A stretch of 64,000 bases of DNA from Helicobacter sp. (GTDB lineage Bacteria; Campylobacterota; Campylobacteria; Campylobacterales; Helicobacteraceae): the NCBI RefSeq assembly GCF_022770205.1, contig NZ_JALEIK010000016.1, forward strand, positions 1 to 64,000, in the 5' to 3' direction. The notes under the pieces were generated by a model. The model did no database searches and was not told where the DNA came from. It saw nothing but the letters and a program-made list of their open reading frames with translations. The position numbers and the translations under genes are program-made. Below are positions 7,713 through 53,997 of this stretch, in pieces; the stretch's first letter is position 1, and each line of letters begins with the position of its first letter.

Positions 7713-7717
7713 TAGGA

Positions 7718-8770
7718 ATGAAAATTTTAGTCACAGGAGTGGCGGGGTTTATTGGGGCGTTTCTTGCTAAGAAGTTGCTAGAGCGCGGAGATGAAGTTGT
7801 AGGGCTTGATTGCATTAATGCTTATTATGATGTTCGCCTTAAATATGGGCGTTTAGAAAATGCAGGGATTGCGCAAAATGCGATTGCCTATAATGCGTTG
7901 GCGCAGAGTGTAAAATATCCTAATTATCATTTTATTAAGTTAAACTTAGAAGATAAAGAGAATCTTTTTGAACTTTTTGAAAATGAGAAATTTGATAAAG
8001 TGTGTAATCTCGCTGCACAAGCGGGTGTGCGGTATTCTTTAGTGAATCCTTATGCGTATGTGGAAAGTAATATTGTGGGATTTGTGAATATCCTAGAAGC
8101 GTGCAGACACCATAATATCAAGCATTTAGCCTATGCGTCAAGCTCTTCTGTGTATGGATTAAATGAAAATATGCCCTTTAGTACAAGCGATAATGTGGAT
8201 CATCCTATTAGTTTATATGCTGCTAGTAAAAAGAGTAATGAGTTGATGGCGCACACTTATTCTTATCTTTTTGGATTGCCCACAACAGGATTGCGCTTTT
8301 TTACGGCTTATGGTCCTTGGGGGCGTCCGGATATGGCGTTATTTTTATTCACAAAAGCGATTTTGGAAGGCAAGCCCATTGCTGTGTTTAATCACGGAGA
8401 AATGCTAAGGGATTTTACTTATATTGATGATATTATAGAAGGTGTTGTGCGTGTGATTGATAATCCTGCAGAGCCAAATGTGCATTGGAGCGGAAAGACT
8501 CCAACTCCCAATAGCTCTAAGGCTCCTTATAAAATCTATAACATTGGCAATAATAATCCCGTGCGACTAATGGATTTTATTGAAGCAATTGAAAAAGAGC
8601 TAGGCATAAAAGCGCGAAAAAATATGCTTCCACTTCAGCCTGGAGATGTGCTAGCAACTTATGCGGATGTTGATGATTTTGTGCATACACTAGGATATAA
8701 ACCAAAGACTAGCATACAAGAAGGGATTAGAAATTTTGTGGCGTGGTATAGGGAGTTTTTTCAAGTTTAG
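7718..8770 (+). CDS. NAD-dependent epimerase, probable UDP-glucuronate 4-epimerase
   Basis: An extended short-chain dehydrogenase of 350 residues. The Rossmann motif GVAGFIG is at residues 7-13, the catalytic Ser region ASSSSVYG at about 140-147 and the YxxxK pair at Y167/K171. The long insert after the first helix, the [15 protein letters not shown] stretch and the RDFTYIDDI motif fit the UDP-glucuronate 4-epimerase group (CapI/LspL-like) rather than GalE. The product, UDP-galacturonate, would feed capsule or lipopolysaccharide synthesis. It follows the aminotransferase by 5 bases with AGG just before the ATG. Confidence 0.85.
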
Positions 8771-36193: not shown

Positions 36194-36739
36194 GTGGTAA
36201 CTGATATGGATTTGAAATTAATCAAAATGATTACTTCGCATTATTGGATTAAAGAGTCTGGATTAGGAACAAAGATTCAACATAATGGGAGAATCTTTTA
36301 TGATAAATTCAAAAGAGTAGATGAGTCTATTAGTAGAAATCTGTTGCAAAGCCACTTTAAAAAAGAAATTACCATTGCTCACTCGCTAATTAACGCACAA
36401 GATAAGGTGGAAAATATTGTATTTGATTACAATGGATTTAACGCAGAGCGCTTTTGGCATAGGGCGCAGTTATTATTGCGTGAAGAAGGGTTTATTAATT
36501 TCACAGCCTATGCAACAAAAACACCCGGGCATTTACATTTGTATGTGCATAAGGGACACACGACTTTTCAAGAGGCTTGCCAATTAGCAAAAATGCTTGG
36601 TGCGAAGCTTGCGCAAAAAATGCCAACAGAATGGAAAATGTTTCCTTCTTTGGATATTCCGCGTAGTTTTAACATTTTAGCGATTCCGTATGAAGTGTAT
36701 CAAAAGGAACGCGGTGCATCTTGGTCAAGACATATGTAA
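36194..36739 (+). CDS. DUF1882 domain protein
   Basis: 181 residues starting at GTG 36194, with AAGGAG 7 bases upstream. It matches the DUF1882 type that I recall only from Campylobacterota, in the same place after glyA as in H. pylori. The sequence has a conserved-looking [13 protein letters not shown] stretch (about 114-126) with several His residues, which could bind metal or RNA, but no function is known. The next gene starts 10 bases downstream. Confidence 0.78.
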
Positions 36740-36749
36740 AGGAGAGAAA

Positions 36750-37559
36750 ATGACAGAATTAGAGCCAAAAAAAGAGCAAAGAGAATTAGAATTAGATGAT
36801 TTATTGATTAGCAGTGCTGATGATACTGATGAAGCGAAGAGTGGTGGCGGTAAGAAAATTGTATTGTTAAGTGCTATTGGTGTGCTGTTATTTGCTGTTG
36901 TGATTTTGGTGGTGTATATGCTTCAAAATGATTCCAAGAAAGAAGAGGTGCAAATGGAGGTGCAAAAGCCATTAGAGCGTGTTGAGCAGCAAATTCCAAA
37001 TACACAGATGTCAAATGCACAAACTAATGATTTTGGTCAAGAGCCAATTCAAGGAGGTGGAAATGCTGATGATCAATTCCAAAGAATTATTGAACAAATT
37101 AAAGCAGAACAAGCAAAACAAAATGCCCAAAACCTTCCAAGTGTGCCAGAGTCAAATACGGAATCCAAAATGGAATCTAAACAAGATCCAAAGCCCACAG
37201 AGCCGCTAAAACCTGTAACTCCGCCACAAATAACAAAACCGCAAACACCAAAGGTAGAATCCCCTAAGCAAAATCCAGCTGATTCTTTTAAAGATGTGAA
37301 GGTAAGTGATCCGGCGTTACAGGGAAGTGAAGCAACAAAAGGTTTTTATGTGCAGGTGGGTTCTTTTAATAAGTTTTCACCAAATAAGGAATTATTGAGC
37401 TTGATTGAATCAAGTAAATTAAGTTATCGTATGCAAAAATCTGGAGACAATAATCGTCTATTAATCGGACCTTTTGCAACAAGACAGGAAGCGCAGAGTA
37501 GATTAAGCGAAATCCGTGAAAAAATCAATAAAGATTCCTTTATTAAAGAAGTTAAATAG
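36750..37559 (+). CDS. SPOR domain membrane protein
   Basis: 269 residues from the ATG at 36750 (AAAGGAG upstream). Order: acidic cytoplasmic N-terminus (1-40), one membrane segment (about 43-63), a Gln/Pro-rich periplasmic linker (about 65-185), then a C-terminal SPOR domain (GFYVQVGSFNKFS to the end). SPOR domains bind denuded peptidoglycan at division sites, so a cell-envelope or division role is likely. Follows the DUF1882 gene closely. Confidence 0.85.
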   Translation: MTELEPKKEQRELELDDLLISSADDTDEAKSGGGKKIVLLSAIGVLLFAVVILVVYMLQNDSKKEEVQMEVQKPLERVEQQIPNTQMSNAQTNDFGQEPIQGGGNADDQFQRIIEQIKAEQAKQNAQNLPSVPESNTESKMESKQDPKPTEPLKPVTPPQITKPQTPKVESPKQNPADSFKDVKVSDPALQGSEATKGFYVQVGSFNKFSPNKELLSLIESSKLSYRMQKSGDNNRLLIGPFATRQEAQSRLSEIREKINKDSFIKEVK

Positions 37560-37646
37560 TTTATATCTTTTTGACTTCTTTTGGTTTAGAATTGTAAAAG
37601 TTTTAATGATAGGTTTATATTAATTTGTATTTAAAGGAGTTATTTA

Positions 37647-38711
37647 ATGGGTGTTTTAAATTTAGTTCAACCTGGAGTTGTTAGTGGCGATAAACTCAAT
37701 CTTATCTATGAATATGCTAAAAATGAGGGTTTTGCTATCCCTGCGGTTAATGTTGTTAATACAAGCTCCATCAATGCAGTTTTAGAAAGTGCGAAGAGGG
37801 TGAATTCTCCTGTTATCCTTCAATTTTCTAATGGGGGAGCTAAATTTTATGCGGGTAAGACTTGTCCTAATGGAGAGGTTTTAGGTGCCATTAGTGGTGC
37901 GCAACATACGCATCTATTGGCTAAATCTTATGGTGTGCCTGTGATTTTACATACAGATCATGCTGCTAGAAAGCTTTTACCTTGGATTGATGCCTTAATT
38001 TTAGCCAATGCTGAATTTAAGCAAAAAAATGGGCAGGCTTTATTTAGTTCTCATATGTTGGATTTGAGTGAAGAGGATTTAGAAGGTAATCTAAGCACTT
38101 GTGAGGAATATCTTAAGAAGTTGGATGCCTTAAACATTTGCCTTGAATTAGAGTTGGGTTGCACGGGAGGAGAGGAAGATGGTGTGGATAATACAAATAT
38201 TGACAATGCCAGACTTTATACTCAACCTGAAGATGTTGCCCTTGCTTATGAGAGATTAACTAAGATTAGTGATAAATTTTCCATAGCAGCAAGCTTTGGT
38301 AATGTTCATGGGGTTTATAAGCTCGGAAATGTGAGTCTTCAACCTGAGATTCTTAAAAATTCTCAATGTTTTGTTAAGGAAAAATTTAGACTTTCTAAAG
38401 ACAAGCCCATTAATTTTGTTTTTCACGGTGGCAGTGGCAGTGAGTTAGCTGATATTAGGGAGGCAGTGAGTTATGGAGTTATCAAAATGAATATTGACAC
38501 CGATACGCAGTGGGCATTTTGGGATGGAGTGCGTAGATATGAGGTAGAAAATAGCGCTTATTTGCAAGGGCAAATTGGTAATCCTGAAGGCGAAGATAAG
38601 CCAAATAAAAAATATTATGATCCAAGAGTGTGGTTAAGAGCAGGTGAGGAAAATATGATAAAAAGATTAGAGCTTGCATTCGAACATTTAAATTGTGTGA
38701 ATAGAAACTAG
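37647..38711 (+). CDS. fba: Fructose-bisphosphate aldolase, class II
   Basis: Zinc-dependent aldolase of 354 residues, cleaving or making fructose-1,6-bisphosphate. Zinc and substrate motifs: LHTDHAARKLLPW, ELELGCTGGEEDG and FHGGSGS. The length and the insert match the E. coli FbaA/Campylobacter type (class IIA), not the shorter ~307-residue class IIB enzyme I recall from H. pylori. It starts the sugar locus, lies outside TGGAATC-rich DNA, and converges on gluP. Strong AAAGGAG ribosome-binding site. Confidence 0.95.
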   Translation: MGVLNLVQPGVVSGDKLNLIYEYAKNEGFAIPAVNVVNTSSINAVLESAKRVNSPVILQFSNGGAKFYAGKTCPNGEVLGAISGAQHTHLLAKSYGVPVILHTDHAARKLLPWIDALILANAEFKQKNGQALFSSHMLDLSEEDLEGNLSTCEEYLKKLDALNICLELELGCTGGEEDGVDNTNIDNARLYTQPEDVALAYERLTKISDKFSIAASFGNVHGVYKLGNVSLQPEILKNSQCFVKEKFRLSKDKPINFVFHGGSGSELADIREAVSYGVIKMNIDTDTQWAFWDGVRRYEVENSAYLQGQIGNPEGEDKPNKKYYDPRVWLRAGEENMIKRLELAFEHLNCVNRN

Positions 38712-38720
38712 ATTAAGAAG

Positions 38721-38750
38721 ATGCCAAAAATGAAAAATCATTTTTGGCAT
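38721..38750. terminator. Bidirectional terminator between fba and gluP
   Basis: ATGCCAAAAATGA, a 4-base AAAA loop, and TCATTTTTGGCAT make a perfect 13-bp stem, between the convergent fba and gluP stop codons. Confidence 0.75.
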
Positions 38751-38763
38751 ATTATCCCAAAAG

Positions 38764-39963
38764 TTATCTTGGTTGATAGCCTTTGAGTGCGAAAAATAAG
38801 ATATAGAAATAGCATAGCAAAGGTATAACATAAGATAATAATAAAGTGGAATAATCAGCTACTAATCCTTGTATCGGAGGAATGATTGCTCCACCTACGA
38901 TTGCCATACAAATAAGACCAGAGGCTTGACTGGTGAATTTACCAAGATTTTTAGTTGCCAAAGAAAAGATAGTTGGGAACATAATTGAGTTAAAAAATCC
39001 CACAGCAATTAATGCAACCATCGCCACCTTGCCACCAACTAAAACAGCTAAAATAATGAGTAGAGAGCTTATAATCGCATTAAAGGCTAAACATTTATTG
39101 GGTGCAATTTTAGTCATTAAGGCACTACCAATGAAGCGTCCAACCATAGCTCCTCCCCAATAAAATGCTATGTATTTAGCACCAGAAACATGGTCAATTT
39201 GTGCCACTTGTTCCATCGTTAAAATCAAAAACGAACCTATGGATACTTCTGCGCCCACATAAAAGAAAATTCCAGCAGCACCTAAAACTAAATGTGGATA
39301 TTGGAACATACTCACTCTACCATCTTGATTTTCATTACTGATTCGTTCAGCTTTTTCGCGCACATCAGGCAATTTTAAGAGATATACTACCACAGCTAAA
39401 ATGATTAAGACTCCAGCTATTCCAAGATAGGGCAGTTGCACTGATTCTGCTTCTTGCGCCTTGCTAACATAAGACGCTGTGTCTGAGAGTATAAACATAG
39501 CTCCAAAAAGTGGACCTAGTGTTGTCCCTAAAGAGTTAAAAGCTTGCACTAAGGTTAAAGCAGATGCTTCTTTGCCGGGTGCTAATAGGGTTACAAAAGG
39601 ATTTCCAGCTGTTTGGAGTAAAACAACACCACTAGCTAGAACAAATAGTGCTCCAAGAAAAATAGGATATGAAGCTGTGGAGGCTGCAGGATAAAATAAA
39701 ATACATCCTAAAGCTGTTAAAATAAAGCCACCTATAACCCCCAAAGGATAACCAATTTTTTCCAAGAGTTTTCCAAAAAAGCCACCAGTAATAAAATATG
39801 CCCCAAAAAAGCAAAATTGTATCAACGCCGCCTCAAAATAATTTAAGTCAAAGATGATCTTTAAATGTGGTATCAAGATATCATTTAATACCGTAATAAA
39901 CCCCATTGCAAAAAACAAAGCCGTTAGGGTTACCAATGCGAAATTGCTGGATTTTGTTTGCAT
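38764..39963 (-). CDS. gluP: Glucose/galactose transporter (FHS family MFS)
   Basis: A 399-residue sugar-proton or sugar-sodium symporter of the fucose-galactose-glucose (FHS) branch of the MFS, with 12 hydrophobic segments. The N-terminus FALVTLTALFFAMGFITVLND and LLQTAGNPFVTLL block are typical of GluP/FucP. It supplies glucose to the Glk enzyme encoded two genes upstream. Last gene of the pgl-glk-pgi-gluP operon, 10 bases after pgi; good AAAGGAAG site. Confidence 0.93.
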   Translation of the reverse strand: MQTKSSNFALVTLTALFFAMGFITVLNDILIPHLKIIFDLNYFEAALIQFCFFGAYFITGGFFGKLLEKIGYPLGVIGGFILTALGCILFYPAASTASYPIFLGALFVLASGVVLLQTAGNPFVTLLAPGKEASALTLVQAFNSLGTTLGPLFGAMFILSDTASYVSKAQEAESVQLPYLGIAGVLIILAVVVYLLKLPDVREKAERISNENQDGRVSMFQYPHLVLGAAGIFFYVGAEVSIGSFLILTMEQVAQIDHVSGAKYIAFYWGGAMVGRFIGSALMTKIAPNKCLAFNAIISSLLIILAVLVGGKVAMVALIAVGFFNSIMFPTIFSLATKNLGKFTSQASGLICMAIVGGAIIPPIQGLVADYSTLLLSYVIPLLCYFYILFFALKGYQPR

Positions 39964-39973
39964 TTTTCTTCCT

Positions 39974-41617
39974 TTAAATTGAATTAAATCGTTTATAGAT
40001 TTGGATTAAATTTGTTGTAGAGCTGTCGTGTTCTTGTCTTTCTCCTCCTTTCAATTCTGTTAAAATTGTGCCTGCTAATTCTTTTCCTAGCTCCACTCCC
40101 CACTGATCAAAGCTATTAACATCCCATAGCACACCTTGCACAAAGATTTTATGCTCATAAAGTGCTACTAGTGAGCCTATGCTTTTTGGGTTAATTGTGT
40201 CTAGCAAAAGAATATTGCTAGGTCTATTGCCTGAAAAGACTCTATGCACAGCTAGCTTGTCAATTTCTTCTTCTGTGAAGCCTTGTTTTCGCATTTGCTC
40301 CTTTACTTCTTCAAGACTTCTGCCCTGCATAAAGGCTTCAGCTTGCGCAAACACATTGCTTAGTAAAATATCGTGGTGCTCGGCAAAATGTCCTTTTCTA
40401 CTTAAAGAAGCTATCAAATCAATAGGGCTTAGATGCGTCCCTTGATGGAGAAGCTGAAAAAAGGCGTGTTGAGCGTTAATGCCAGTATCTCCCCAAATGA
40501 TAGGACCTGTATCGTAATCCACTCCAATGCCACTTTTAGTGATTTGTTTTCCATTGCTTTCCATATCAAGTTGCTGTATAAACTTTGGAAAATAACGCAA
40601 CAAAGAATCATAAGGAGCTATGATATGTGAGCCAGCATCAAAAAAATTGATATACCAAATTCCAATAAGAGCCATTAAAATGGGTATATTGCTTTCAAAA
40701 GGTTGGGTGCGAAAGTGTGTATCCATTACAAAAGCACCTTCAAGTAAAGTGGTAAAATTTTCCTTGCCAAGATAAATGATGATTGCTAAACCTATTGCAG
40801 ACCATAAGCTATAACGACCTCCAACCCAGTTCCAAAATTCAAACATATTATCCACATCAATACCAAATTCCCTTACTGCTTCTTTGTTTGTAGAAACAGC
40901 CACAAAGTGTTTAGCAATATGCGCTTCATCAAGGGCGTGGCGCAAAAACCATTTTCTAGCACTAAGAGCATTTGTGAGTGTTTCTTGTGTAGAAAAAGTT
41001 TTTGAGGCTACAATAAAAAGTGTACTTTCTGGATGTACTTTTGAGAGCACACTTTCTAATTGGATTCCATCTACATTGGAAACAAAATGCATATTTAAGC
41101 GAGGATGTCCAAAGTTTTTCAACGCTTTGCATACCATTAAAGCACCCAAATCAGATCCCCCTATGCCGATATTAACCACATCTGTAATGACTTGATGGGT
41201 GTAGCCAAGCCAAGAACCAACTCTTAGGGCATCGGAAAAATTTTCCATTTTTGTTAGCACTTCTCTAATGCTAGGCATAATATCAACGTCATCAATTTTA
41301 ACAGGGGAATTTCTCTCTCTATTCCTTAGTGCTGTGTGTAAGACGGCTCTATTTTCTGTGGTGTTAATCTTATTGCCTTCAAACATAGCATCAATTTTTT
41401 CTTTTAGTTTGCATTCATTAGCTAATGCAAAAAGCAATCTTAAAGTCTCATCATCTAAACGATTTTTAGAATAATCCAGTTTCAAGTCCCCATTTTGCAG
41501 AAAATACCGCTGTCCTCTATTTTTATCCTCTCTAAACCAAGCACGCATATGCTTATTTTTAACTAATTCAAAATGTTGCTTTAGGGCTTTGTAGGAATTT
41601 AATTGTGTTAAGCCCAT
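39974..41617 (-). CDS. pgi: Glucose-6-phosphate isomerase
   Basis: 547 residues, the standard long Pgi. Signature motifs [23 protein letters not shown] and the [13 protein letters not shown] block. It interconverts glucose-6-phosphate and fructose-6-phosphate, here linking the Entner-Doudoroff enzymes with Fba and gluconeogenesis. The ATG shares a base with the glk stop (TAATG). Confidence 0.96.
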
Positions 41618-42612
41618 TATCTAACTCCTAGTTCTATGAGGTGATTTTCTAAAGCCACTCCTACCCCATAAATACCGGAATATTTAGCTAAAACCACATA
41701 AACAGGAATAGCGGCTAAATAGGCATCAAACCTGCCCTTGTCTTCAAAGCGGGTTCTAAAGGGTGAAGTTTTAAAATAATTAATAAAGCGAGGAATAATT
41801 CCTCCGCATAAATATACCCCACCTCTAGCCCCTAAGGTTAAAGCTAAATCTGATGAAACTGTGCCAAGCATAGCGCAGAATATATCAAGGGTAAGCCTAC
41901 AAAGTGGAGATTTGCCACTTAAGGCATGTTCGCTGATGAGTTCTGGGCTTAACTTTTGGTTATTAATGCCTTCCCTGTGTGCTAGAGCTTCGTAGATTAA
42001 AACTAATCCAGATCCACTTAAAAAACGCTCGGCTGATACATGTCCATATTTTTTCTTTGCATATTGCCAAATCACTACTTCAGTATCATCAAAAGGTGCA
42101 AAACTCACATGTCCGCCTTCGCCAGCTAAGGCGACATGGCTATTCTCATTGTAAGGGATGAGTCCGCTTACTCCAAGTCCCGTTCCTGGACCCAAAACTG
42201 CTTTTGGAGCATCTAAATCACAAGAGTGTCCTCCAACTTGCATTAATTCTTTGGGGGACATTTTTGATACAGCATAGGCTTGTGCGGTAAAGTCATTGAT
42301 GAGAAGAAGAACATCTAAATTGAGGGCTTGTCTTGTGGTTTCTATAGAAAAAGCCCAATGATGATTTGTCATTTGTACCCAATCTCCAACCACAGGATTA
42401 GCAATAGCAAAAGCACCAAATTTAATGGACGGATTATTGACTTTATTGAGATAACTCTTAACAGCATCAACAACGGTGTTGTAGTCATTGCAAGATAACA
42501 CCTCTATGTGTTCAACTTTGTTGGCTTCTGTTTGAAGAGCAAAGCGTGCATTAGTGCCACCAATATCAGCTAAAATGCGTGGGTAGGAATTTTTATTTTG
42601 AGAAATAGACAT
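41617..42612 (-). CDS. glk: Glucokinase
   Basis: 331-residue ATP-dependent glucokinase with the phosphate-1 motif [11 protein letters not shown] and adenosine motif [12 protein letters not shown]. Phosphorylates glucose imported by GluP. Overlaps pgl by 20 bases and pgi by one, so the operon is tightly coupled. Confidence 0.96.
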
Positions 42613-43270
42613 CGCAATTTACCTCTTTAGAATGGAGTATATAAGAAATAGGAAGATTAATATTGATATTTTTTGCTGCTTCATTAAAAATTTGCTTTTT
42701 TTCATCACCGATGATAAGCAAAAAAAGTTTATCGCATTTTTGTAAAGCAGAGAGAGACATAGATAGCCTTTTGTGTGGGGCATTTTGTGGCTCAATAAAA
42801 ACTATATTTTGTTCTGTGGTTAAGGATTCTTTAAAATCTAAAGCATTGGGAAACAAGGAGGCTGTATGTCCATCGTTTCCCATACCAAGAATAGCTAAAT
42901 TAGGTTGTTTATAAGTGTGATTGGCTTCCTTGAGTATAACATCAATAGGGGAAAGTGAGTTAAAAAAAGGAGTGAAATTAGCAACTTTTGCTGAGTTTTG
43001 TAAAAAATAATTTTTAATAACACCAGCATTACTATCGGGATGGTGTGATTCAACCAATCTTTCATCTACTAAAGAGATGTTACATTTTTGCCATTCACAT
43101 TCAAAAGTGCTGAGAATTTTTAAAAAATCTAAAGGGGATTTTCCTCCAGAAAACGCAATGTTAATAGAATCTTTTTGCTTAAGTTCTTTTTGAATGGAGT
43201 TAATTACAGCTTGAGCTAGAGCTGTGCTAACCTGCGTTGTATTTTTAAATTCGTAAAGTTGAAACGCCAT
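42593..43270 (-). CDS. pgl: 6-phosphogluconolactonase
   Basis: 225-residue DevB/Pgl-type lactonase, motifs [16 protein letters not shown] and [14 protein letters not shown]. It opens the lactone made by Zwf. First gene of the pgl-glk-pgi-gluP operon; the ribosome-binding site is weak, with a likely promoter at 43319-43324. Confidence 0.94.
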
Positions 43271-43313
43271 ATTACTATTGAACCCTACCTTACTTTTATG
43301 TGTTGTGTCTATC

Positions 43314-43338
43314 TAAGAATTATATCTGTAAATTCTTA
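43314..43338 (-). promoter_or_regulatory. Promoter of the pgl operon inside an inverted repeat
   Basis: On the minus strand a TATAAT lies at 43324-43319, about 50 bases before the pgl ATG. It sits within TAAGAATT ... AATTCTTA, an 8-bp inverted repeat with a 9-base spacer. An inverted repeat over the -10 box could be an operator; it could equally be a terminator for zwf, which ends 81 bases away in the same direction. Confidence 0.4.
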
Positions 43339-43418
43339 AGACAAGGAGTAACGATAGGTAAAATTTTAGAAATTTAAGACATAAGTGTTTTAGTATTGCT
43401 CATTTAGGCTGATCAAAG

Positions 43419-44810
43419 TTAAGGATTGTGCCATTCATAACCGGATTGTTGAATTAATTTATCAGCTTCTTTTGGACCAAAACTTCCCGCAGGATAGTTA
43501 TACAAAGGGGTTTTGTCTGTATTCCAATTTTGTAAGATGGGTTCTACCCAAGCCCAAGCCGCTTCAAGCTCTTCTTTATGGTTAAAAGAAGCTTGATTTC
43601 CTTCAATCACATCTAAAATCAGTTTCTCATAGGGTTGCATACTTTCTTCATTGAGCTTTAAGTGGAGAGTTTTTTCTTCGCTTTGGGTCGTGTTTCCGCT
43701 TTTTTTGATATTTAAACTTAAGTTTAATTTATGTTCAGGTTGTAGGTGTATGATTAGTCTATTGGCATAATTGTCTTTCTTGTTTTTAAAGTGAAATACG
43801 AGTTGGACGAAAGAGTGCGCCATTCTTTTGCCTGTTCTAAGGTAAAAGGGTACTCCAAGCCAATTTTTATCTAAAAGCTCTGCCCTTAGAGCTACAAAGC
43901 TCTCTGTTGTGCTATTTTTTCTTACCTTTTCTTCTTCTAAATAGCCTTTAAGTCCAGCATTTGCGCTGTATTGTGCTCTTACTACTTGTGTGGCTATGTC
44001 TTCATCGTTTAGCGGTTTAAGCTTTTTAAAAAGTTCTAGCTTTGCTTTTCTTAGTTGTTCAGCGTTTAAGATTGGAGGTAATTGCATTGTGATAAGTGAG
44101 AAAATTTGTAACATATGATTTTGTAGCATATCGCGTAAAGCTCCGGCATTATCATAAAATTCACCTCTGCCTTCAACTCCTAGAGTTTCAAAAACGCTAA
44201 GTTCAACACAGGCGATATGCTCTTTGCTCCAAAGCCCAGCTAAAAGAGGATTTGAAGTTCTTAGTGTGAGTAAATTTTGCACACTTTCTTTGCCTAGATA
44301 ATGATCTATTCTATAAATTTGATTTTCATTATAAAAGTCCATTAAGGATGTATTAATGTCTTTACAAGATTGCAAATCAACGCCCAAAGGCTTTTCTAAA
44401 ATGATTTTTACAGCTTCTTTATTAAGCCCTACAAGAGCTAAATTTTTACAAGCTGTGATAAAAAATTCAGGCGAAATGGAGAAATAAATCACTATGTTTT
44501 GTGCGTTTAAAGCTATGTTTTGGCGGAGCATAGAAAAGTCGTCAGCCTTATTTAAATTAATACTTAAATAGCTAATGTGTTGCACAAAGCTTTGCCATTT
44601 TTCTTCATCTAAATGCTTAATGTGAAATTTAGAATTGGCATTAAGTTTTTCTAGGAATTCCTGTGTGCTAAGAGCTGTTCTGCTTGTTGCTATGATTCCT
44701 TTAAGCGCATTAAAATAACCATCCACATAGGCTTGATAGAGTGCGGGGAAAATCTTCCGCATTGCTAAGTCTCCTGTGGCACCAAATAGAATAAAAGTGA
44801 AACCTTGTAT
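43419..44810 (-). CDS. zwf: Glucose-6-phosphate 1-dehydrogenase with an ATA start codon
   Basis: NADP-dependent first step of the pentose phosphate and Entner-Doudoroff routes. The first ATG (44762) lies after the nucleotide-binding loop. The open frame upstream codes for QGFTFILFGATGDLA, the essential Rossmann motif, so the true start must be earlier. No ATG, GTG or TTG fits; an ATA at 44810 lies 6 bases after AGGA (44817-44820). From there the protein is 463 residues. The RIDHYLGKE motif with the catalytic Lys is intact. Separated from pgl by 148 bases. Confidence 0.9.
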   Translation of the reverse strand: MQGFTFILFGATGDLAMRKIFPALYQAYVDGYFNALKGIIATSRTALSTQEFLEKLNANSKFHIKHLDEEKWQSFVQHISYLSINLNKADDFSMLRQNIALNAQNIVIYFSISPEFFITACKNLALVGLNKEAVKIILEKPLGVDLQSCKDINTSLMDFYNENQIYRIDHYLGKESVQNLLTLRTSNPLLAGLWSKEHIACVELSVFETLGVEGRGEFYDNAGALRDMLQNHMLQIFSLITMQLPPILNAEQLRKAKLELFKKLKPLNDEDIATQVVRAQYSANAGLKGYLEEEKVRKNSTTESFVALRAELLDKNWLGVPFYLRTGKRMAHSFVQLVFHFKNKKDNYANRLIIHLQPEHKLNLSLNIKKSGNTTQSEEKTLHLKLNEESMQPYEKLILDVIEGNQASFNHKEELEAAWAWVEPILQNWNTDKTPLYNYPAGSFGPKEADKLIQQSGYEWHNP

Positions 44811-44816
44811 GATATT

Positions 44817-44820
44817 TCCT
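44817..44820 (-). promoter_or_regulatory. Ribosome-binding site deciding the zwf start
   Basis: AAAGGAA on the minus strand, with AGGA ending 6 bases before ATA 44810. Its position supports translation starting upstream of the GATGDLA motif, not at the internal ATG 48 bases further on. Confidence 0.65.
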
Positions 44821-44860
44821 TTAGAAGTGATTTTATGTCTTAGTTTGAAATTTTAGGGGA

Positions 44861-44875
44861 AATTATAGCATAATT
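44861..44875. promoter_or_regulatory. Overlapping divergent promoters of zwf and edd
   Basis: The 15-base palindrome AATTATAGCATAATT supplies a minus-strand TATAAT (44867-44862) for zwf and a plus-strand CATAAT (44869-44874) for edd. The two -10 boxes lie almost back to back, so RNA polymerase could hardly occupy both at once. Confidence 0.45.
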
Positions 44876-44903
44876 CTAAACTCTTGCGAATTAAAGGATA
44901 AAA

Positions 44904-46706
44904 ATGGTTACAAAAAAATTAAAACAAATTACAGATACAATAATAGAGCGCAGCAAAGATACTCGCCAAGCCTACCTTGAACGCTTGACTCATTATAAAA
45001 AAAAGATAAAGCGACAAGATTTAGGTTGTGCGAATTTGGCGCACGCTTATGCAAGCATTCCAAAGCATATCAAGGAGAGTTTAAGCGCAAATGAGGTTTT
45101 GAATTTTGCTATCCTTTCTTCTTATAATGATATGCTCTCAGCCCACCAACCTTTTAAGCATTATCCCGATCTCATCAAACAAGAGTTATTTAAGCATCAA
45201 GCCTTAGCGCAGTTTGCGGGTGGGACGCCTGCTATGTGTGATGGTATCACTCAAGGGTATGAAGGTATGGAGCTAAGTTTGTTTTCTAGGGATGTGATTG
45301 CTATGAGTGTTGCAATAGCATTGTCGCATAATGTTTTTGATGGGGCGTTTTATCTTGGGGTTTGTGATAAAATCGTGCCCGGACTTTTGATAGGGGCTTT
45401 GAGTTTTGGATATTTGCCAAGTATTTTTGTGCCTTCAGGTCCTATGACTAGCGGGCTTTCCAATGATGAAAAATCAAAAACGCGCCAACTCTTTGCAGAG
45501 GGTAAAATTTCACGCGACAAGTTGCTTGAAAGTGAGATGCGCTCTTACCACGATGTAGGCACTTGCACCTTCTATGGTACGGCAAATTCTAATCAAATGA
45601 TGATGGAATTTATGGGCTTGCATCTTCCAAATTCTGCTTTTATCAATCCTAACACACCTTTAAGAGAGGCTTTAGTTAAAGAAGCTGCTAGGCATATGGT
45701 AAGTCAAAAAGTGAAGCCCTTAGGTGAGTTGCTTAGTGAGAAAAATATTATTAATGCTATGGTTGGGCTTATGGCAACGGGGGGTTCTACCAATCACACC
45801 ATCCATTTAATCGCCATCGCTAGGGCTGCTGGAATCCTTATTAATTGGGATGATTTTGATGCGATTTCTAGTGTGATTCCGCTTTTAGCTAGGGTTTATC
45901 CTAATGGCAAGGCGGATGTGAATCAGTTTGAGGCAGCAGGTGGTTTAGCCTTTGTGATAAGTGAGCTTTTAAAAGAAGGCTTGCTACATAATGATGTGGA
46001 TACGATTATGGGGGAGGGGATGGACTTTTATACACGGAATCCTTTTTTGCTTGATGGCAAAATTGTGTATCAAAAAGGCGTGGAGCAAAGCAAGGAAGAG
46101 AGCATATTGCGCGGCGTGAAGCAGCCTTTTTCTTGTGATGGGGGGCTTAAAATTTTGCGTGGAAATATGGGTAGGGCGGTGATTAAAATTTCTGCTGTCA
46201 AAGAGGAGCATAGAGTGATTAAAGCTCCTGCTATGGTTTTTCACTCCCAGCAAGAGCTTTTGGAGCGTTTTGAAAATAAGCAGTTACAAAAAGATTTTGT
46301 TGCAATTTTGCCTTATCAAGGAGCTAGAGCTAATGGTATGCCAGAACTCCATAAGCTTACCCCCGTACTTGGTAGCTTACAAGATCAAGGTTTTAAGGTA
46401 GCTTTGGTAACAGATGGTAGAATGTCAGGAGCATCAGGAAAAATTCCAGCAGCCATTCATACTAGCCCAGAAGCTTTGCTAGGTGGCAATATTGCTAAGG
46501 TTAGAGATGGGGATATGATAATTTTAGATGCTCAAAATGGTATTTTGCAAGCTTTAGTGGAGGAAAAGGAGTGGGAGAATAGAGAGAGTGTGTATGCTGT
46601 TGATGCAGAGATTTTTGGCTGTGGCAGGGAGCTTTTTGCAGCTTTAAGAGCGCAAAGCTCAAGTGCTGAAACAGGAGCAATGAGCTTTGGAGGATATTTT
46701 AAATAA
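44904..46706 (+). CDS. edd: 6-phosphogluconate dehydratase
   Basis: Key Entner-Doudoroff enzyme producing KDPG from 6-phosphogluconate; 600 residues with a 4Fe-4S cluster. Cys-containing motifs GGTPAMCDGITQG and YHDVGTCTFYGTANSNQ, and LMATGGSTNHT are clear. Divergent from zwf and followed 32 bases later by eda. Confidence 0.96.
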   Translation: MVTKKLKQITDTIIERSKDTRQAYLERLTHYKKKIKRQDLGCANLAHAYASIPKHIKESLSANEVLNFAILSSYNDMLSAHQPFKHYPDLIKQELFKHQALAQFAGGTPAMCDGITQGYEGMELSLFSRDVIAMSVAIALSHNVFDGAFYLGVCDKIVPGLLIGALSFGYLPSIFVPSGPMTSGLSNDEKSKTRQLFAEGKISRDKLLESEMRSYHDVGTCTFYGTANSNQMMMEFMGLHLPNSAFINPNTPLREALVKEAARHMVSQKVKPLGELLSEKNIINAMVGLMATGGSTNHTIHLIAIARAAGILINWDDFDAISSVIPLLARVYPNGKADVNQFEAAGGLAFVISELLKEGLLHNDVDTIMGEGMDFYTRNPFLLDGKIVYQKGVEQSKEESILRGVKQPFSCDGGLKILRGNMGRAVIKISAVKEEHRVIKAPAMVFHSQQELLERFENKQLQKDFVAILPYQGARANGMPELHKLTPVLGSLQDQGFKVALVTDGRMSGASGKIPAAIHTSPEALLGGNIAKVRDGDMIILDAQNGILQALVEEKEWENRESVYAVDAEIFGCGRELFAALRAQSSSAETGAMSFGGYFK

Positions 46707-46738
46707 AGCTTAAGAAAATTTAAATATTAAGGATAAGA

Positions 46739-47362
46739 ATGCAAGCGATAGATATTTTACAGATTAATAAAATCATACCTGTGATTACGATTTATGATTT
46801 AAAAACAAGTGTGGATTTAGCTAGGGCTCTGGTAGCTGGTGGTATAGAAATTTTAGAAATTACTCTAAGAACCAAAGATGCACTTGAAGCGATACGCCTT
46901 ATAGCAAATGAAGTGCCAAATGTCGTTGTGGGGGCTGGCACGGTGCTAAATGCTAAAATGCTTGAAGAAGCCAAGAAGGCAGGAGCTAAGTTTGCTATTA
47001 GCCCCGGGCTAAATGCTATCTTTGCAAAAGAGGCTAAGGAGGTGGATTTACCACTAATTCCCGGCGTGGCGACGGCTAGTGAGTTAATGCTAGCATTAGA
47101 ATTTGACTTTAGGGCTTTAAAGTTTTTTCCTGCGCAAAGTGCTGGGGGCGTCGATTTGCTAAAGTCCCTTGCCGCGCCATTTCCTAGCGTTAAATTTTGT
47201 CCAACGGGGGGAATAAACTTAGAGAATATGCAGACATATTTGGGGCTTGAAAATGTGCTGTGTGTAGGTGGTTCTTGGCTTAGTCCTAAGGATTTAGTGC
47301 TAGCAAAACAATGGGATAGCATTAGTCAGTTAGCTAGAGAGAGTCTTGTCAAAGCACTTTAA
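46739..47362 (+). CDS. eda: KDPG aldolase (2-dehydro-3-deoxyphosphogluconate aldolase)
   Basis: 207 residues, class I TIM-barrel aldolase splitting KDPG into pyruvate and glyceraldehyde-3-phosphate. The Schiff-base Lys is in ALKFFPAQSAGG, with EITLRT (Glu base) and ISPGLN blocks. Last gene of the sugar locus. Confidence 0.95.
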   Translation: MQAIDILQINKIIPVITIYDLKTSVDLARALVAGGIEILEITLRTKDALEAIRLIANEVPNVVVGAGTVLNAKMLEEAKKAGAKFAISPGLNAIFAKEAKEVDLPLIPGVATASELMLALEFDFRALKFFPAQSAGGVDLLKSLAAPFPSVKFCPTGGINLENMQTYLGLENVLCVGGSWLSPKDLVLAKQWDSISQLARESLVKAL

Positions 47363-47537
47363 TTATTGGAAGTGCGGTTAGGTAGTTAGAATGTTATTGG
47401 CGATGGAATCCATTGTTTGACTGCATAAGAAATTTGCTTATGGAGAGTAGAATATGTTACAATCTATGGACGCAACCATCCTAAAGCCTCAGCGGTGGAT
47501 GCGTGAAATTATGTTAAATCATTTTAAAAGGAAGGTA

Positions 47538-48927
47538 ATGCAGCAGTTAAGTTTTATTAAGTTTAAAACCTCTATTAAAGCAGAGGATTATCTCATATTA
47601 AGGGAGATTTTACAAGAAGATGTAGAGATTGCATTTGTTAGTGATTTTTATAGTGTAGATTTTTTTAATTACTTATACAGGTGCGGGGGGGGGGGATTAT
47701 TGTAGCTTTTAACATAGATTTAGCTGATTTAGAGATTGAGTCTATAAAAAAGTCATTTTAGCACAAGAAAATAGTTATTTTGCCTTCCGTAATCCTTATG
47801 AAAAAATTAAGGATTCCATCTTTTTTAAGCTTGTAAGCTTAGATAATTTCTCGCGTTATGCCACAGAATATGCTTATAAAAATCAAATTTTAGAAAAACA
47901 TTTGCGCAACGCAATGCACTCTAGGTGGGATAGTGTTTATAAAACGCAATTTTTTGAGGATAGGAGATTGTATAATCTTTCAATGCAGTGGAATGTGGTG
48001 AAAGACTCTTATTTTAAATATCCGCGTGAAATTTGGATTGCATTATTAAATACTTGTAATACAAATTGTTTGTTTTGTCCTTGGTTTGGCTTTAGTCTAA
48101 GCAAAACGCTGCGCAATGATTACTTTAAAACAGATAAAAAAATTGCGACTGCACAAGTTGAAAACATCTTGCAATATGCAGGTAAGGCTAGGGCTAAATG
48201 CATTTTTTCAGGTCCGGGAGATCCGCTTTTAGATGAACGCTTAGGAAACTTTGTAAAGCACGCAAAAGAATATGGGGTTTCATCTGTGGAGATTGCCACA
48301 AATGGAGTTTTATTAACGCCAAAGAAATTTTTAGAGTTAGTTATATCTGGGGTGGATTCTTGGGTGATTAGTGTGTTGTTTACAAAAGAAACTTATGAGA
48401 GATGTGAAGAGGGATTTTTTGAAGTTTTTAAACAAAATTTAATAGAAATTGCTAAACTGATTGAAAGCTTAAAACCATCGCTATCAATACATTTTGCTAT
48501 TATGTATGAAGAGCATAGGATGGTAGAAATGCTTGTGTTTTGGAATCGTATTGTAAGTTTATCTCATCGTATCAAAGTAACTTCTAGTTGTTGTACAGGC
48601 TGTGCAGGAGCAAATGGAGAATATGTTGATTAGACGAATACTGCTGCGATTAGAGCGGCACAGCAAAGGCATTCTTGTAGCGCACCTTTTGGAAGCCTTT
48701 ATGTTTTTCCAAGTGGAGATGTTGCGCATTGTGAGCACCAAAGGGGCTATTTGGGCAGAGAAGATGTTGAGAAATTTTGTTTAGGGAATGTGTATGAACA
48801 GGATTTAGAAGAAATATGGAATGGAATAGCGCACAAGCGTTTTTGTCAAGCGCATCAAAATATGGATTTTATGCAGCAAGAAACTGCTCTTTGTCATTCT
48901 TGTATTGCGTGGTGGAATGAAGTTTGA
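47538..48927 (+). pseudogene. Radical SAM/SPASM protein, poly-G OFF and further damaged
   Basis: Reading across frames restores a protein of about 460 residues. From the ATG at 47538 (AAGGAAGG upstream) the frame runs into 11 G at 47685-47695 and stops within three codons. A 12th G would open a plausible continuation (IIVAFNIDLAD), which then needs one more base near the A6 run at 47746-47751. The next frame carries the CxxxCxxC cluster motif (NTCNTNCLFCPW) and ends at an in-frame TAG (48631-48633). Beyond it the same frame continues with a SPASM-like tail (SCSAPFGSLYVFPSGDVAHC, GNVYEQDLEEIWN, CHSC) to the TGA at 48925. Function unknown; at least three lesions. Confidence 0.8.
47685..47695 (+). 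repeat. Poly-G tract (11 G) in the radical SAM gene
   Basis: Eleven consecutive G. The frame would be restored at this point by 12 G, the length seen ON in the DUF2972 gene at 29913. Confidence 0.95.
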
Positions 48928-48935
48928 AGGGGAAA

Positions 48936-50105
48936 TTAGTGTATCCCTTTAATTTTATCCAACCATTCCTTAAGGGTTTTTTCAAAGCCCTTTGGAAGCC
49001 ATTTGACAAATTTTAAATCCCTATTTAAATAGCCTTGCTCTACATAGCCGCCAAAGTCGTGTGGGTAGAGATAACCTTTGTGAAAGTGCTTAATGTGGGG
49101 TGGAATCTCTTCATTGGGGTGCTTTTCTACATAATCTAGGGCTGTGTTGATGGCTAGATACGCACAATTTGACTTAGGGCTAGCACAAAGGTAAATCACG
49201 CATTGGCTAAGGATGATCCTAGCTTCTGGATAGCCGATTTTTGCAACGCTTTGCATTGTGGAGTTTGCTAAGTTTAGGGCGTTTGGGTTTGCATTGCCAA
49301 TGTCTTCGCTTGCTAAAATCACAAGTCTTCTTGCAATGAATTCTGGATTCTCTCCCCCTTGAATGAGTCTTGCAAGGTAATAAATTGCTGCATTTTCATC
49401 ACTCCCGCGGATGCTTTTAAGCATTGCTGAGATTAAATCATAATGCGCATCTAGCTCGCTAGTGCCGCTTGGTGCAGTTTTGCGCAAAGATTTTAACAGC
49501 TCCACATTTAGCGGTAATTGCGTGCTTTGTGCGCAATCTAGTAAGTTTAGCATTGCTCTTGCATCGCCACCACTAGTTTGGATAAGAAAATTTTGCACTT
49601 CTTCATTGAGTGCAAATGGCTTTAAAATCTGCTCTAGCTCCTTTGTGTTTAAGGGCTTAAATGCAAACACCATAGAGCGCGAACGGATTGCTTGTGTGAG
49701 TGCAAAATAGGGATTTTCCGTAGAAGCTCCTAGGATTAAAGCGGTGTGATTTTCCATAATAGGAAGTAACATTTCTTGCTGGGTTTTACTAAGCCTATGC
49801 ACTTCATCAATGAAAATTAAGGGTTTTTGTAAAGTGTTATGGTGTGCTGTTAAAATCTTACGCAAATCTTCGGATTTAAAATTTGTCGCATTGAGTGCAT
49901 AAAAAGGGGAATCCATAGTCTTAGCAATGAGCATTGCTGCGCTTGTTTTGCCACTTCCTGGTGGTCCAAAGAAAAAGGAATGCGGAATCTTTTTTGTCAA
50001 AATTAATCGCATAAAGGGTGCATTTTCTCCAAAAAGATGTGTTTGTCCGATGAATTGCTGAAAGTTTTTAGGTCTTTTGTTGTATGCTAAATCTTGCATT
50101 TTCAT
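48936..50105 (-). CDS. rarA: Replication-associated recombination protein A (RarA/MgsA)
   Basis: AAA+ ATPase of the clamp-loader type acting at stalled forks. 389 residues with Walker A GPPGSGKTS, Walker B FIDEVHR, sensor 1 GASTENPYF and a C-terminal tetramerisation region including HPNEEIPPH and YLYPHDF. An alternative ATG lies two codons in. Confidence 0.93.
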   Translation of the reverse strand: MKMQDLAYNKRPKNFQQFIGQTHLFGENAPFMRLILTKKIPHSFFFGPPGSGKTSAAMLIAKTMDSPFYALNATNFKSEDLRKILTAHHNTLQKPLIFIDEVHRLSKTQQEMLLPIMENHTALILGASTENPYFALTQAIRSRSMVFAFKPLNTKELEQILKPFALNEEVQNFLIQTSGGDARAMLNLLDCAQSTQLPLNVELLKSLRKTAPSGTSELDAHYDLISAMLKSIRGSDENAAIYYLARLIQGGENPEFIARRLVILASEDIGNANPNALNLANSTMQSVAKIGYPEARIILSQCVIYLCASPKSNCAYLAINTALDYVEKHPNEEIPPHIKHFHKGYLYPHDFGGYVEQGYLNRDLKFVKWLPKGFEKTLKEWLDKIKGIH

Positions 50106-50924: not shown

Positions 50925-53285
50925 ATGTCAAAGATTCCGCATATAACTTATGAGTTTGAGTTGCAAGGTGTGGTGCAGGGCGTTGGATTTCGTCCTTTTG
51001 TGTATAGAATTGCTAAGGAATGCGGAGTCTTTGGAAATGTGCGCAATACGACTGCTGGTGTAACAATTCTAGCGCAAGGCACTAAGAAGGCTTTGGAGTG
51101 TTTTGAAAAGGCTTTGCAGACTCCCCCTAAGGTTGCAAAAGTGACTAAAATTTTTAAACAAGAAATTAAAAATGCGGAATCCTTTTTTGACTTTAGCATC
51201 ATGCAAAGCACACAGGGGAATGGATTAGGTGCAACAATCCCAGCAGATATTGCGCTTTGTGAAGAATGCTTAAGAGAAATGCAGAATCCAAAAAATCGTC
51301 GCTTTGGCTATGCGTTTATAAGTTGCACAAATTGTGGCGGGAGATATAGTTTAATAAAAACACTTCCTTATGATAGGCAAAGCACAGCAATGGCAGATTT
51401 TGTGATGTGTAAAGCGTGTCAAGATGAGTATAATGATCCTAATTCTAGGAGATTCCATTCAGAAATTAATTGTTGCTATGATTGTGGTCCAAGATTGTTT
51501 TTTACTGAGAATTTAGAGGCATATAAGGAATGCACAGAGGATTTTGTTTTATGCAAGAGGCTTGGAGAAGATTGTATGCAAAACCCTTTAGAGAGAGCGG
51601 TAGAATACCTAAAAGCAGGAAAGATTTTAGCAATCAAGGGGATTGGGGGGTATGCGCTTGTGTGTAATGGGCTAGATTCTCAGGCGATTTTAGCATTAAG
51701 GAAGCGTAAGAATCGCCCTAGAAAGCCTTTTGCTTTGATGTGTAAAAATACGGAAATGGCGGAATCTTATGTGCATTTAAGCGCATTGCAAAAAGAGATT
51801 TTAAATTCTAGTGCTGCACCAATTTTGCTTTGTGATTTTAAAGATAACATCTCTTTGCCGCTTTCTATCATTGCTCCTAAACTTGCTACTTTGGGTATTA
51901 TTTTGCCCTATGCGCCTTTGCATTATTTATTGTTTGAAAAGCTTAATTTTCCATTAATTTTTACAAGTGCTAATGTAAGTGGAGAGCCAATTATTAAGGA
52001 TTTTTCTCAAATTGTTGAAGCTTTTGAGGGAGTGTGTGAGGGAGTGCTATTTTATAATCGTAATATTTTAAATCCCATTGATGATAGTTTAGTGCGTGTT
52101 ATTACGCATAAGGGTAAAGAGCAAATGCAGGTTTTGCGCCGTGCGCGCGGATTTTTATCGGAGATTACCCTGCCATTTAAAAGTGCGCAGGATTTTATTG
52201 CGCTTGGGGCGCAACAAAAGGCAACTTTTTGTTTAAAAATACAAAACAAGGTTTTGCTTAGTCCGCATTTGGGAGATTTAGAGAATATTGAGAGTGTGGA
52301 GAATTTTTTAAAGACACAAAAATTATTTTTAACACAATATAAAATTGCTCCTAAAAATTTTGTGCTAGATTTGCATCCAAATTATGCTCAAAGGGGGTTT
52401 ATTAGCGATGCAAAAAGGATAGAATGCGTGCAACATCATTTTGCACACTTGCTCTCTAATGTGGTAGAGAATAGGATTGATAAGAAGGTTTTGGGTGTCA
52501 TTTTTGATGGAACAGGATATGGCGATAGTAGCAAGGATAGGCAGGGGATGATATGGGGAGGTGAGTTTTTAGAGTGGAATCCTAAAAAGCCTTTGGAATA
52601 TCAGCGTGTTGCGTATTTTGATGCTTTGATGCTTTTAGGAGGAGAGAGGGCGATTGAGGATATTAGAAGGCTTGGATTATCTTTGATTTTTGAGAGTTTT
52701 AAGGGAGAGTATAAAACGCTTGATTTATCCTTGTTTAAGGAGTTTTCACAAGAGGAATTAGAGATTTTTTATGCCTTAAATGCAAAACAATCAAGGGTAA
52801 GAGTGCCTTGTAATAGTGTAGGGAGGCTTTTTGATGGAGTTAGTGCGCTTTGTGGTGTTTGTGTGCAAAGTAGTTATGAGGGAGAGGGGGGGATGGTGTT
52901 AGAATCCTTTGCTTTAAACGCTTTGAAAAAGTTGGAATCTAAAAAATTAAGAGCGTATTCTTATACAATCCAAGAAGGTGTGGTAAATTATCAGTCTATG
53001 GTTAGGGAGATTTGCAAAGAGCTAGAGTCGGGTGTGGAAGTGTGCGAGATTGCATTAAGATTCCATATTACGCTTGCTAGTGTGATTGCAGAAATTGCTA
53101 AGGATTACACGCATATTGCATTAAGTGGGGGATGTTTTCAAAATGCTCTTTTAACGCAACTTGTTTTAGAAAAGCTTGTGGGCAAAGAGGTGTATCTTAA
53201 TGGAGAGATTCCGTGTAATGATGGCGGCATTAGTGTAGGGCAAGCGTATTTTATGGAGTTGTTTTATGCACAGCTAACGCGCTAA
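50925..53285 (+). CDS. hypF: Carbamoyltransferase HypF (NiFe hydrogenase maturation)
   Basis: Makes the carbamoyl-AMP and transfers carbamoyl to HypE, the source of hydrogenase CN ligands. 786 residues in the standard order: acylphosphatase domain (QGVVQGVGFRPFVYRIA, about 13-29), two Cys4 zinc fingers (CEECLREM ... CTNCGGRYS, CKACQDEY ... CCYDCGPRL), YrdC-like domain (about 235-400) and Kae1-like C-terminal domain (VQHHFAHLLS). Other hyp genes are outside the window. The end overlaps the convergent SDR gene by 35 bases. Confidence 0.95.
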   Translation: MSKIPHITYEFELQGVVQGVGFRPFVYRIAKECGVFGNVRNTTAGVTILAQGTKKALECFEKALQTPPKVAKVTKIFKQEIKNAESFFDFSIMQSTQGNGLGATIPADIALCEECLREMQNPKNRRFGYAFISCTNCGGRYSLIKTLPYDRQSTAMADFVMCKACQDEYNDPNSRRFHSEINCCYDCGPRLFFTENLEAYKECTEDFVLCKRLGEDCMQNPLERAVEYLKAGKILAIKGIGGYALVCNGLDSQAILALRKRKNRPRKPFALMCKNTEMAESYVHLSALQKEILNSSAAPILLCDFKDNISLPLSIIAPKLATLGIILPYAPLHYLLFEKLNFPLIFTSANVSGEPIIKDFSQIVEAFEGVCEGVLFYNRNILNPIDDSLVRVITHKGKEQMQVLRRARGFLSEITLPFKSAQDFIALGAQQKATFCLKIQNKVLLSPHLGDLENIESVENFLKTQKLFLTQYKIAPKNFVLDLHPNYAQRGFISDAKRIECVQHHFAHLLSNVVENRIDKKVLGVIFDGTGYGDSSKDRQGMIWGGEFLEWNPKKPLEYQRVAYFDALMLLGGERAIEDIRRLGLSLIFESFKGEYKTLDLSLFKEFSQEELEIFYALNAKQSRVRVPCNSVGRLFDGVSALCGVCVQSSYEGEGGMVLESFALNALKKLESKKLRAYSYTIQEGVVNYQSMVREICKELESGVEVCEIALRFHITLASVIAEIAKDYTHIALSGGCFQNALLTQLVLEKLVGKEVYLNGEIPCNDGGISVGQAYFMELFYAQLTR

Positions 53286-53997
53286 AACTTTGGCTTGTTG
53301 GCATCATTTCTAAGGTGTTGATGTTGATGTGTTTTGGTGGAGTTGCAACCCAATACACTGCTTCTGCAATGTCTTGTGGTTGAAGTGCCTGACTATTTTG
53401 ATAGAGTGCATCAGCACGCGCTTTATCTCTTTTAAAACGCACGAGTGAAAACTCACTCTCTGCAAGCCCGGGCTGTATATCGCTTACTCTTACATTTGTG
53501 CCTGCCAAATCTGCACGCAATCCTAGTGCAAACTGTCTAACAAAAGCTTTTGTTGCCCCATAGACATTGCCACCGGGATAAGGGTATTTCCCAGCAATAG
53601 AACCTAAAGTGATGATGTGTCCGTTTTTGCGCTCCACCATTTGTGGCAATAGGAGATGCGTAAGGTAGCTAAGGGCTGTAATATTAACGCTAATCATTTG
53701 CTCTCAGTCGTTAAAATCACACTTTTGCGCAGGTTCAATACCTAGCGCAAGCCCTGCATTATTAACCAAAACATCAATTTCTTGAAAATCTTTTGGCAGG
53801 GAAGAGAGTGCATTTTTTAAGGCATCTTTATTGCAAATATCGCAGGGTAAGATGACGCATTGTGGAATCTCTTTTGCTAACAATTCTAAGCGTTCTTTAC
53901 GCCTTGCAAGTGCGATGACTTGATGCCCGTTTGCGCCAAATTTTCTAGCAATTTCTCTACCAAAGCCGCTAGATGCTCCTGTTACTAAAATAACCAT
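53251..53997 (-). pseudogene. YdfG-like short-chain dehydrogenase interrupted by an in-frame TGA
   Basis: The two pieces 53997-53704 and 53697-53251 are one 248-codon SDR gene in a single frame. N-terminal TGASSGFGREIA, NNAGLALG, catalytic YGATKAF and C-terminal NINTLEMMPTSQS match the NADP-dependent 3-hydroxy acid dehydrogenase YdfG family. A TGA at 53706-53704 falls in FND-stop-EQMISVN, where relatives have Trp (TGG). One G to A change explains it. The rest of the frame looks intact, so the loss is recent, a variant, or a sequence error. It follows the TPR lipoprotein gene by 10 bases. Confidence 0.88.

Follow-up and report, generated by a model that had tools for sequence, protein, structure and literature searches.

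We have examined a 64,000-nucleotide stretch of Helicobacter sp. DNA (the window), which is part of contig C18 in a genome of 1.61 Mb assembled in 38 contigs. Base-by-base checking placed a radical SAM/SPASM gene at 47538-48927 on the forward strand, from an ATG at 47538 to a TGA at 48925-48927, and a AAGGAAGG stretch was seen by eye ahead of the ATG. The gene is interrupted by an 11-G tract whose two sides lie in different frames, by a one-base frame break at a run of six A, and by an in-frame TAG (Table 1), which are the three defects named by the sequence-only reading. The frame entering the tract closes at TAG 47703-47705. The third frame is open from 47740 to 48630 (297 aa), and the stretch from 48634 to 48924 is open in the same frame as the core piece upstream of the TAG. 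Since the orthologues align across all pieces, these breaks interrupt one gene. It had been proposed that 12 G would restore the frame. On the one hand, the flanks of the tract are indeed out of register; on the other hand, the A6 and TAG lesions lie outside the tract, and therefore a change of tract length could not by itself restore a single open frame. The gene is OFF by its tract and carries two further disabling lesions in the assembly, and since slippage in the tract cannot repair these breaks, we read the copy as a pseudogene.

Table 1. Positions of the radical SAM/SPASM gene pieces, of the neighbouring genes and of the family members with a tract in the SPASM part
Feature	Stretch	Position	Strand	Remarks
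SPOR-like gene (by eye)	window	36690-37559		adjoins rarA in H. turcicus (empty site)
gluP-type transporter, pgi, glk, pgl, zwf, edd	window	38764-46706		rest of the Entner-Doudoroff locus
eda	window	46739-47362	+	last gene of the Entner-Doudoroff locus; context
N-terminal 49 codons before the tract, frame 1	window	47538-47684	+	aligns with orthologue starts in H. turcicus and G018
Poly-G tract, 11 G	window	47685-47695	+	flanks in different frames (OFF)
Short middle piece, 16 codons, frame 2	window	47696-47743	+	homologous to the post-tract strand of relatives
A6 run	window	47746-47751	+	one-base frame break relative to orthologues
Radical SAM core piece, frame 3	window	47752-48630	+	PF04055, CNTNCLFC
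In-frame TAG	window	48631-48633	+	sense codon there in both orthologues
C-terminal SPASM piece, 97 codons and stop TGA	window	48634-48927	+	PF13186
rarA-like AAA ATPase gene	window	48936-50105	-	RarA-type NCBIfam matches below cut-offs
Member with SPASM-part tract	L077	8211-9518	-	
Member with SPASM-part tract	L076	11765-13288		
Member with SPASM-part tract	L155	7743-9305		

Runs of at least eight G or C occur just twice in the 64-kb window, and the 11-G tract is one of them; by arithmetic on composition only, with G near 0.19, about 1e-3 runs of 11 G would be expected. The first poly-G gene of the window, at 29486-30889 (+), has 12 G at 29913-29924 and forms one open frame of 467 aa, so that it is ON in this assembly.

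The domain matches support the assignment to the radical SAM superfamily and its SPASM subfamily. The third-frame piece matched Radical_SAM (Pfam PF04055) at 40.3 bits against a cut-off of 29.5, and the piece after the TAG matched SPASM (PF13186) at 45.5 bits against 21.5. The CxxxCxxC motif is present as CNTNCLFC. TIGR04085 (NCBIfam) fell just below its cut-off (26 against 27). Among the best 25 of 34 NCBIfam families for the core piece none reached its cut-off, and the top family, TIGR04317, scored 57 against 380 bits, so that no named radical SAM equivalog could be assigned among these 25. The gene thus shares with radical SAM/SPASM enzymes both domains over cut-off and the CxxxCxxC motif, but it has an additional, tract-bearing N-terminal part and fits no NCBIfam model among those best 25. 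A GPGE motif is common to H. turcicus and the genomes G018, G009 and G014; the window copy has GPGD, a change that is possibly harmful.

A PDB sequence search with the H. turcicus orthologue returned five solved sequences at E up to 0.01, all weak and restricted to the core, and no solved structure of close kin was among them. Residues 112-222 align with BlsE (cytosylglucuronate decarboxylase, 7vob) and residues 117-223 with BtrN (4m7t), at E values of 4e-4 to 1e-3 that cover the core only and give no basis for claiming a common function. BlsE and BtrN act on sugars. The third kind of match, 8wm2, is named just 'Fe-S radical SAM'. The predicted structure of the H. turcicus downstream frame, made from a two-row alignment, was poor (pLDDT 45).

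We searched 19 genomes of the genus, own genome included, with the 297-aa piece (E <= 1e-20) and found matches in nine of them. The closest orthologues were those of H. turcicus (G016, also L052; 73-75%) and G018 (72%), and over the whole gene the window copy is 72% and 70% identical to these two. Both are OFF in their assemblies, with 49-50 codons before the tract out of register, and both are otherwise intact, the post-tract frame being open for 421-422 aa to the end. The sequence-only reading had advised a search for intact homologues; these two answer to it apart from their tracts, and five other family members read ON. The intragenic tract is conserved and its length differs among the orthologues (11 G in the window and in G018, 13 G in H. 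turcicus), and on this basis we classed the gene as a putative phase-variable gene.

In total, 18 members from the genus search and one further G018 copy from an order-wide search make up a family of 19, window gene included. A tree of 21 rows was built from 18 of these members (one fragment was left out) and three further radical SAM proteins encoded in the own genome. The window gene, H. turcicus and G018 formed one clade (100/99), and G009, G014 and a G007 copy join them in a larger clade of six rows (100/99). In the order-wide search, 199 genomes were queried with the G009 protein (E <= 1e-25) and members turned up in four, all of the window's own genus, and a scan of genome contigs for relatives found H. 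turcicus alone.

In every one of the 19 members a run of 10-14 G lies within or next to the gene. The tract lies before the radical SAM core in 16 members and inside the SPASM part in three, which are copies from G008, G001 and G018 (Table 1). By our reading it stands directly before a strand motif (AFNxDL, FNYPL or similar) in 12 of the 16, and probably in a 13th; in two others it is shifted towards the core by about 20 codons relative to the remaining long members, and in one it is near the N-terminus. Among the 16 members with a pre-core tract, five are ON and ten are OFF, and the last is truncated at the end of its contig. The ON fraction of 5/15 equals the random-phase expectation of one in three. 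Eight of the ten OFF members are otherwise intact, so an OFF state does not imply decay; damage was seen in the other two, namely the window gene and the fragment G001:C85. Where the tract lies in the SPASM part, its length would alter the C-terminus. Two of these three members read through to the full C-terminus, and the G008 copy stops just past the tract.

A phase-variable radical SAM enzyme had been called unusual. This view fails because all 19 family members have a tract, seven of the 25 PF04055 hits in the own genome have poly-G in or beside the frame, and two C. fetus genes carry it as well. Contig C28 of the own genome holds two paralogues, one ON and one OFF. The C. fetus genes, CFT03427_1545 (G 9-10) and CFT03427_1558 (G 9), are listed as phase-variable radical SAM genes in a table of species-specific core phasomes, at the 87.5 level, which also lists poly-G methyltransferases, a short-chain dehydrogenase and a formyltransferase-domain gene (PMC6321876). 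They share the radical SAM superfamily and a poly-G tract with the window gene, but they belong to another genus, their tracts are shorter, and the window copy has the extra disabling lesions; the likeness is that of their description in that table.

The poly-G phasome described for H. canadensis shows the same mechanism and similar tract lengths. All translational candidates there are poly-G, with a read-level spread of, for example, G9-14 for a G11 tract (PMC2823697). The term 'radical SAM' is absent from the main text on that phasome, and the parts of PMC2823697 consulted describe no broken radical SAM gene for H. canadensis.

The genes around the homologues give an indication of function. 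Neighbourhoods that look glycan-type surround 14 of the 18 members whose surroundings were read, four by Pfam and ten by eye, G001:C85 being outside this count. The members in the window, H. turcicus and G018, and the copy G007:C8, stand alone among ordinary genes. By Pfam, the G009 member is accompanied by UDP-GlcNAc 2-epimerase, Gfo/Idh/MocA oxidoreductases, a hexapeptide transferase, a DegT aminotransferase, asparagine synthase and a formyltransferase. The G014 member adjoins an asparagine synthase, and the two C28 paralogues lie with asparagine synthase and a glycosyltransferase (both by Pfam). In one G007 locus, 18 kb of sequence contain 11 G/C tracts. The scan around homologues took in 19 proteins, among them the G014 member itself, and six of these matched no Pfam family. 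As most of the neighbourhoods read look like poly-G-rich loci of glycan type, we infer a role on a glycan precursor. The substrate is most likely a sugar or another surface-glycan precursor, which would undergo SAM-radical chemistry.

Elsewhere in the own genome, the first 20 kb of the 22.7-kb contig C13 (L039, 1-20000) hold 13 G tracts of 9-13 and six radical SAM hits, which are interspersed with genes that by eye resemble those for methyltransferases, transketolases and formyltransferases; this would be a dense phase-variable locus of glycan type.

The window copy differs in its genomic place from both orthologues. A mutS2-like gene (by eye) and tRNA-Pro/tRNA-His flank it in H. turcicus and G018, whereas its neighbours in the window genome are eda and the rarA-like gene. 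In the own genome, the mutS2 side of the old site is found at the end of C5 (L110) and the tRNA side at the end of C21 (L151). Each of these contigs breaks off in autotransporter-like sequence (by eye), which suggests that a repetitive gene now occupies the mutS2/tRNA site. The gap between the SPOR-like gene and rarA (window 37560-48935) is itself variable: it is empty in H. turcicus, holds a chemoreceptor-like gene (by eye) in G018, and in the window measures 11.4 kb, with fba, the gluP/pgi/glk/pgl/zwf/edd/eda locus and the radical SAM gene.

The sugar locus had been described as imported. It is patchy, with an Edd at >=79% identity in three of the 19 genus genomes, own included, and matches of just 33-36% in the other 16, and it is absent at this site from H. 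turcicus, where the SPOR-like gene and rarA are adjacent, and from G018. Such a distribution would be expected of an imported island, and import from outside is one possible origin; the island proteins are 57-84% identical to those of G001 and G008, a range that brackets the 75% of RarA in the same genomes.

The radical SAM gene adjoins the Entner-Doudoroff genes, as had been read. In G008 (L150) no radical SAM gene lies beside eda; at L150 8936-8945, directly after eda, a G10 tract opens an autotransporter-like frame (by eye). G001 (L149) is uninformative on the gene after eda, since only about 123 bases of contig follow eda there. We regard the radical SAM gene and the Entner-Doudoroff locus as neighbours here, for which a functional link would be conjecture. 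The identity of the radical SAM gene to its two orthologues is at the low end of the 72-97% seen for the flanking genes, and horizontal import of this gene alone, although possible, would not be needed.

We compared selection on the window, H. turcicus and G018 copies with a codon model over 451 codons; its rates are three-species rates with near-saturated synonymous sites. Omega was 0.097 on the window branch and 0.122 on the other branches (difference p = 0.58), and an omega of 1 on the window branch was rejected (p = 4e-5). The part after the TAG taken alone gave an omega of 0.078, with 1 again rejected (p = 0.009). Relaxed selection on the window branch, by which an old decaying pseudogene would be recognised, was therefore not detected. 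The best estimate of the neutral share of this branch is 0 with an upper limit of about 0.08, which by arithmetic leaves room for roughly 40 neutral changes and is compatible with a short neutral phase. Amino-acid changes private to the window copy number 21, against 45 in H. turcicus and 56 in G018, and private synonymous codons 36, against 42 and 31.

Six genes served as controls. The rarA-like gene had a higher omega in the window (0.142 against 0.044, p = 0.014). A similar but non-significant tendency was seen in the SPOR-like gene and w32888, and no difference in the remaining three. If anything, selection is thus less relaxed on the broken radical SAM gene than on some of its intact neighbours. 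This signature of purifying selection points to damage that would be recent, or to lesions that may be assembly or sequencing errors.

The genome has further broken genes. A ydfG-like short-chain dehydrogenase gene at 53251-53997 (-) has a lone TGA at 53704-53706, where H. turcicus and G012 have Trp, and is intact in the rest. A bioB-like biotin synthase gene (by eye) on contig C25 (L042, about 6850-7750) has one in-frame TAA and is otherwise intact, with the nearest G/C run 5 kb off. A second damaged radical SAM gene, C5:227820 (L043 6188-7374, -), is frameshifted, lies in an apparent sugar-gene cluster and has no poly-G nearby. We considered whether TAG might be recoded and rejected this, as bioB is broken by TAA and ydfG by TGA, and the SPOR-like gene of the window itself ends in TAG. 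When 17 window genes were compared with syntenic relatives, 16 covered at least 0.95 of the relative's frame and ydfG was split; two antisense shadow frames were left out of this comparison, and a few of the relatives' frames were cut at the ends of fetched stretches.

Taken together, we consider it probable that the window holds a poly-G phase-variable gene for a radical SAM/SPASM enzyme that modifies surface glycans, and that this copy was inactivated recently and has moved beside the Entner-Doudoroff genes. In the relatives, slippage of the G tract in the N-terminal domain would control, at translation, the production of the full enzyme of about 460-540 aa. Once produced, the enzyme would most likely apply SAM-radical chemistry to a sugar or to some other surface-glycan precursor. 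In the window strain, the gene would have moved from the mutS2/tRNA-Pro-His site to the gap between eda and rarA and gained two lesions outside the tract, so that the full protein would be made at no tract length.

A rival account is that the A6 break and the TAG both arose as errors of sequencing or assembly and that this is an ordinary phase-variable radical SAM gene which is merely OFF. The A6 lesion, a one-base change in an A run, is of the classic error type, the assembly is a draft in 38 contigs, and the gene keeps its purifying selection along its entire length, including the part after the TAG. However, the TAG is a substitution and not a run-length error. The assembly error rate also looks low, since 16 of 17 window genes cover their relatives' frames, and yet two lesions fall within 1.4 kb here. 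We consider this account unlikely.

The sequence-only reading had held that the gene was first switched OFF, lost selection and then decayed. The gene is both OFF and damaged, the G001:C85 fragment is another OFF member with damage, and the codon model leaves room for neutrality over at most about 8% of the branch. Nevertheless, most OFF members with a pre-core tract are otherwise intact, a slipping tract gives a reversible OFF state, and the window copy has no excess of amino-acid change. Tract-free genes of the same genome are broken too, and as lone lesions have hit ydfG and bioB, which have no switch, being switched off and then neglected is weakened as a special cause. The order in which the tract went OFF and the lesions arose cannot be read from the sequence, but on these grounds the proposed course of events was not upheld, and we regard it as quite improbable.

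It is also conceivable that the pieces still work, the core (47740-48630) or the SPASM piece being made from internal starts, or some full product arising by frameshifting or readthrough. The pieces remain conserved, and the ORF list holds an internal TTG start at 47902. Against this, the TAG separates SPASM from the core, two breaks would have to be passed, and in the undamaged family members the frame always runs from core to SPASM without a stop, so that we give this idea very little credence. The recently inactivated, relocated copy is the reading that we prefer.

We also put forward, tentatively and as a possibility that may well prove wrong, a broader reading. The family may be a radical SAM/SPASM clade limited, in the genomes searched here, to one genus, with poly-G built into every member, that toggles an undescribed radical modification of surface glycans; the window copy would have been lost by ordinary mutation while its paralogues go on switching. 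As part of the same tentative reading, the tract would have been kept mostly at one position before the strand, among members that are about 30% identical, and would have moved into the SPASM part in a few.

In summary, the single gene carries little weight. It would be one more broken phase-variable gene and ordinary as a pseudogene. As most of its OFF relatives are otherwise intact, and as its own sequence bears the signature of purifying selection, an OFF state in an assembly should not be taken as the first step of decay. The family is the better lead, with its G tracts in all 19 members found and its members mostly in loci that look glycan-type. The tracts in this clade suggest that radical chemistry is among the surface features varied by these bacteria, which can be tested on the intact homologues.
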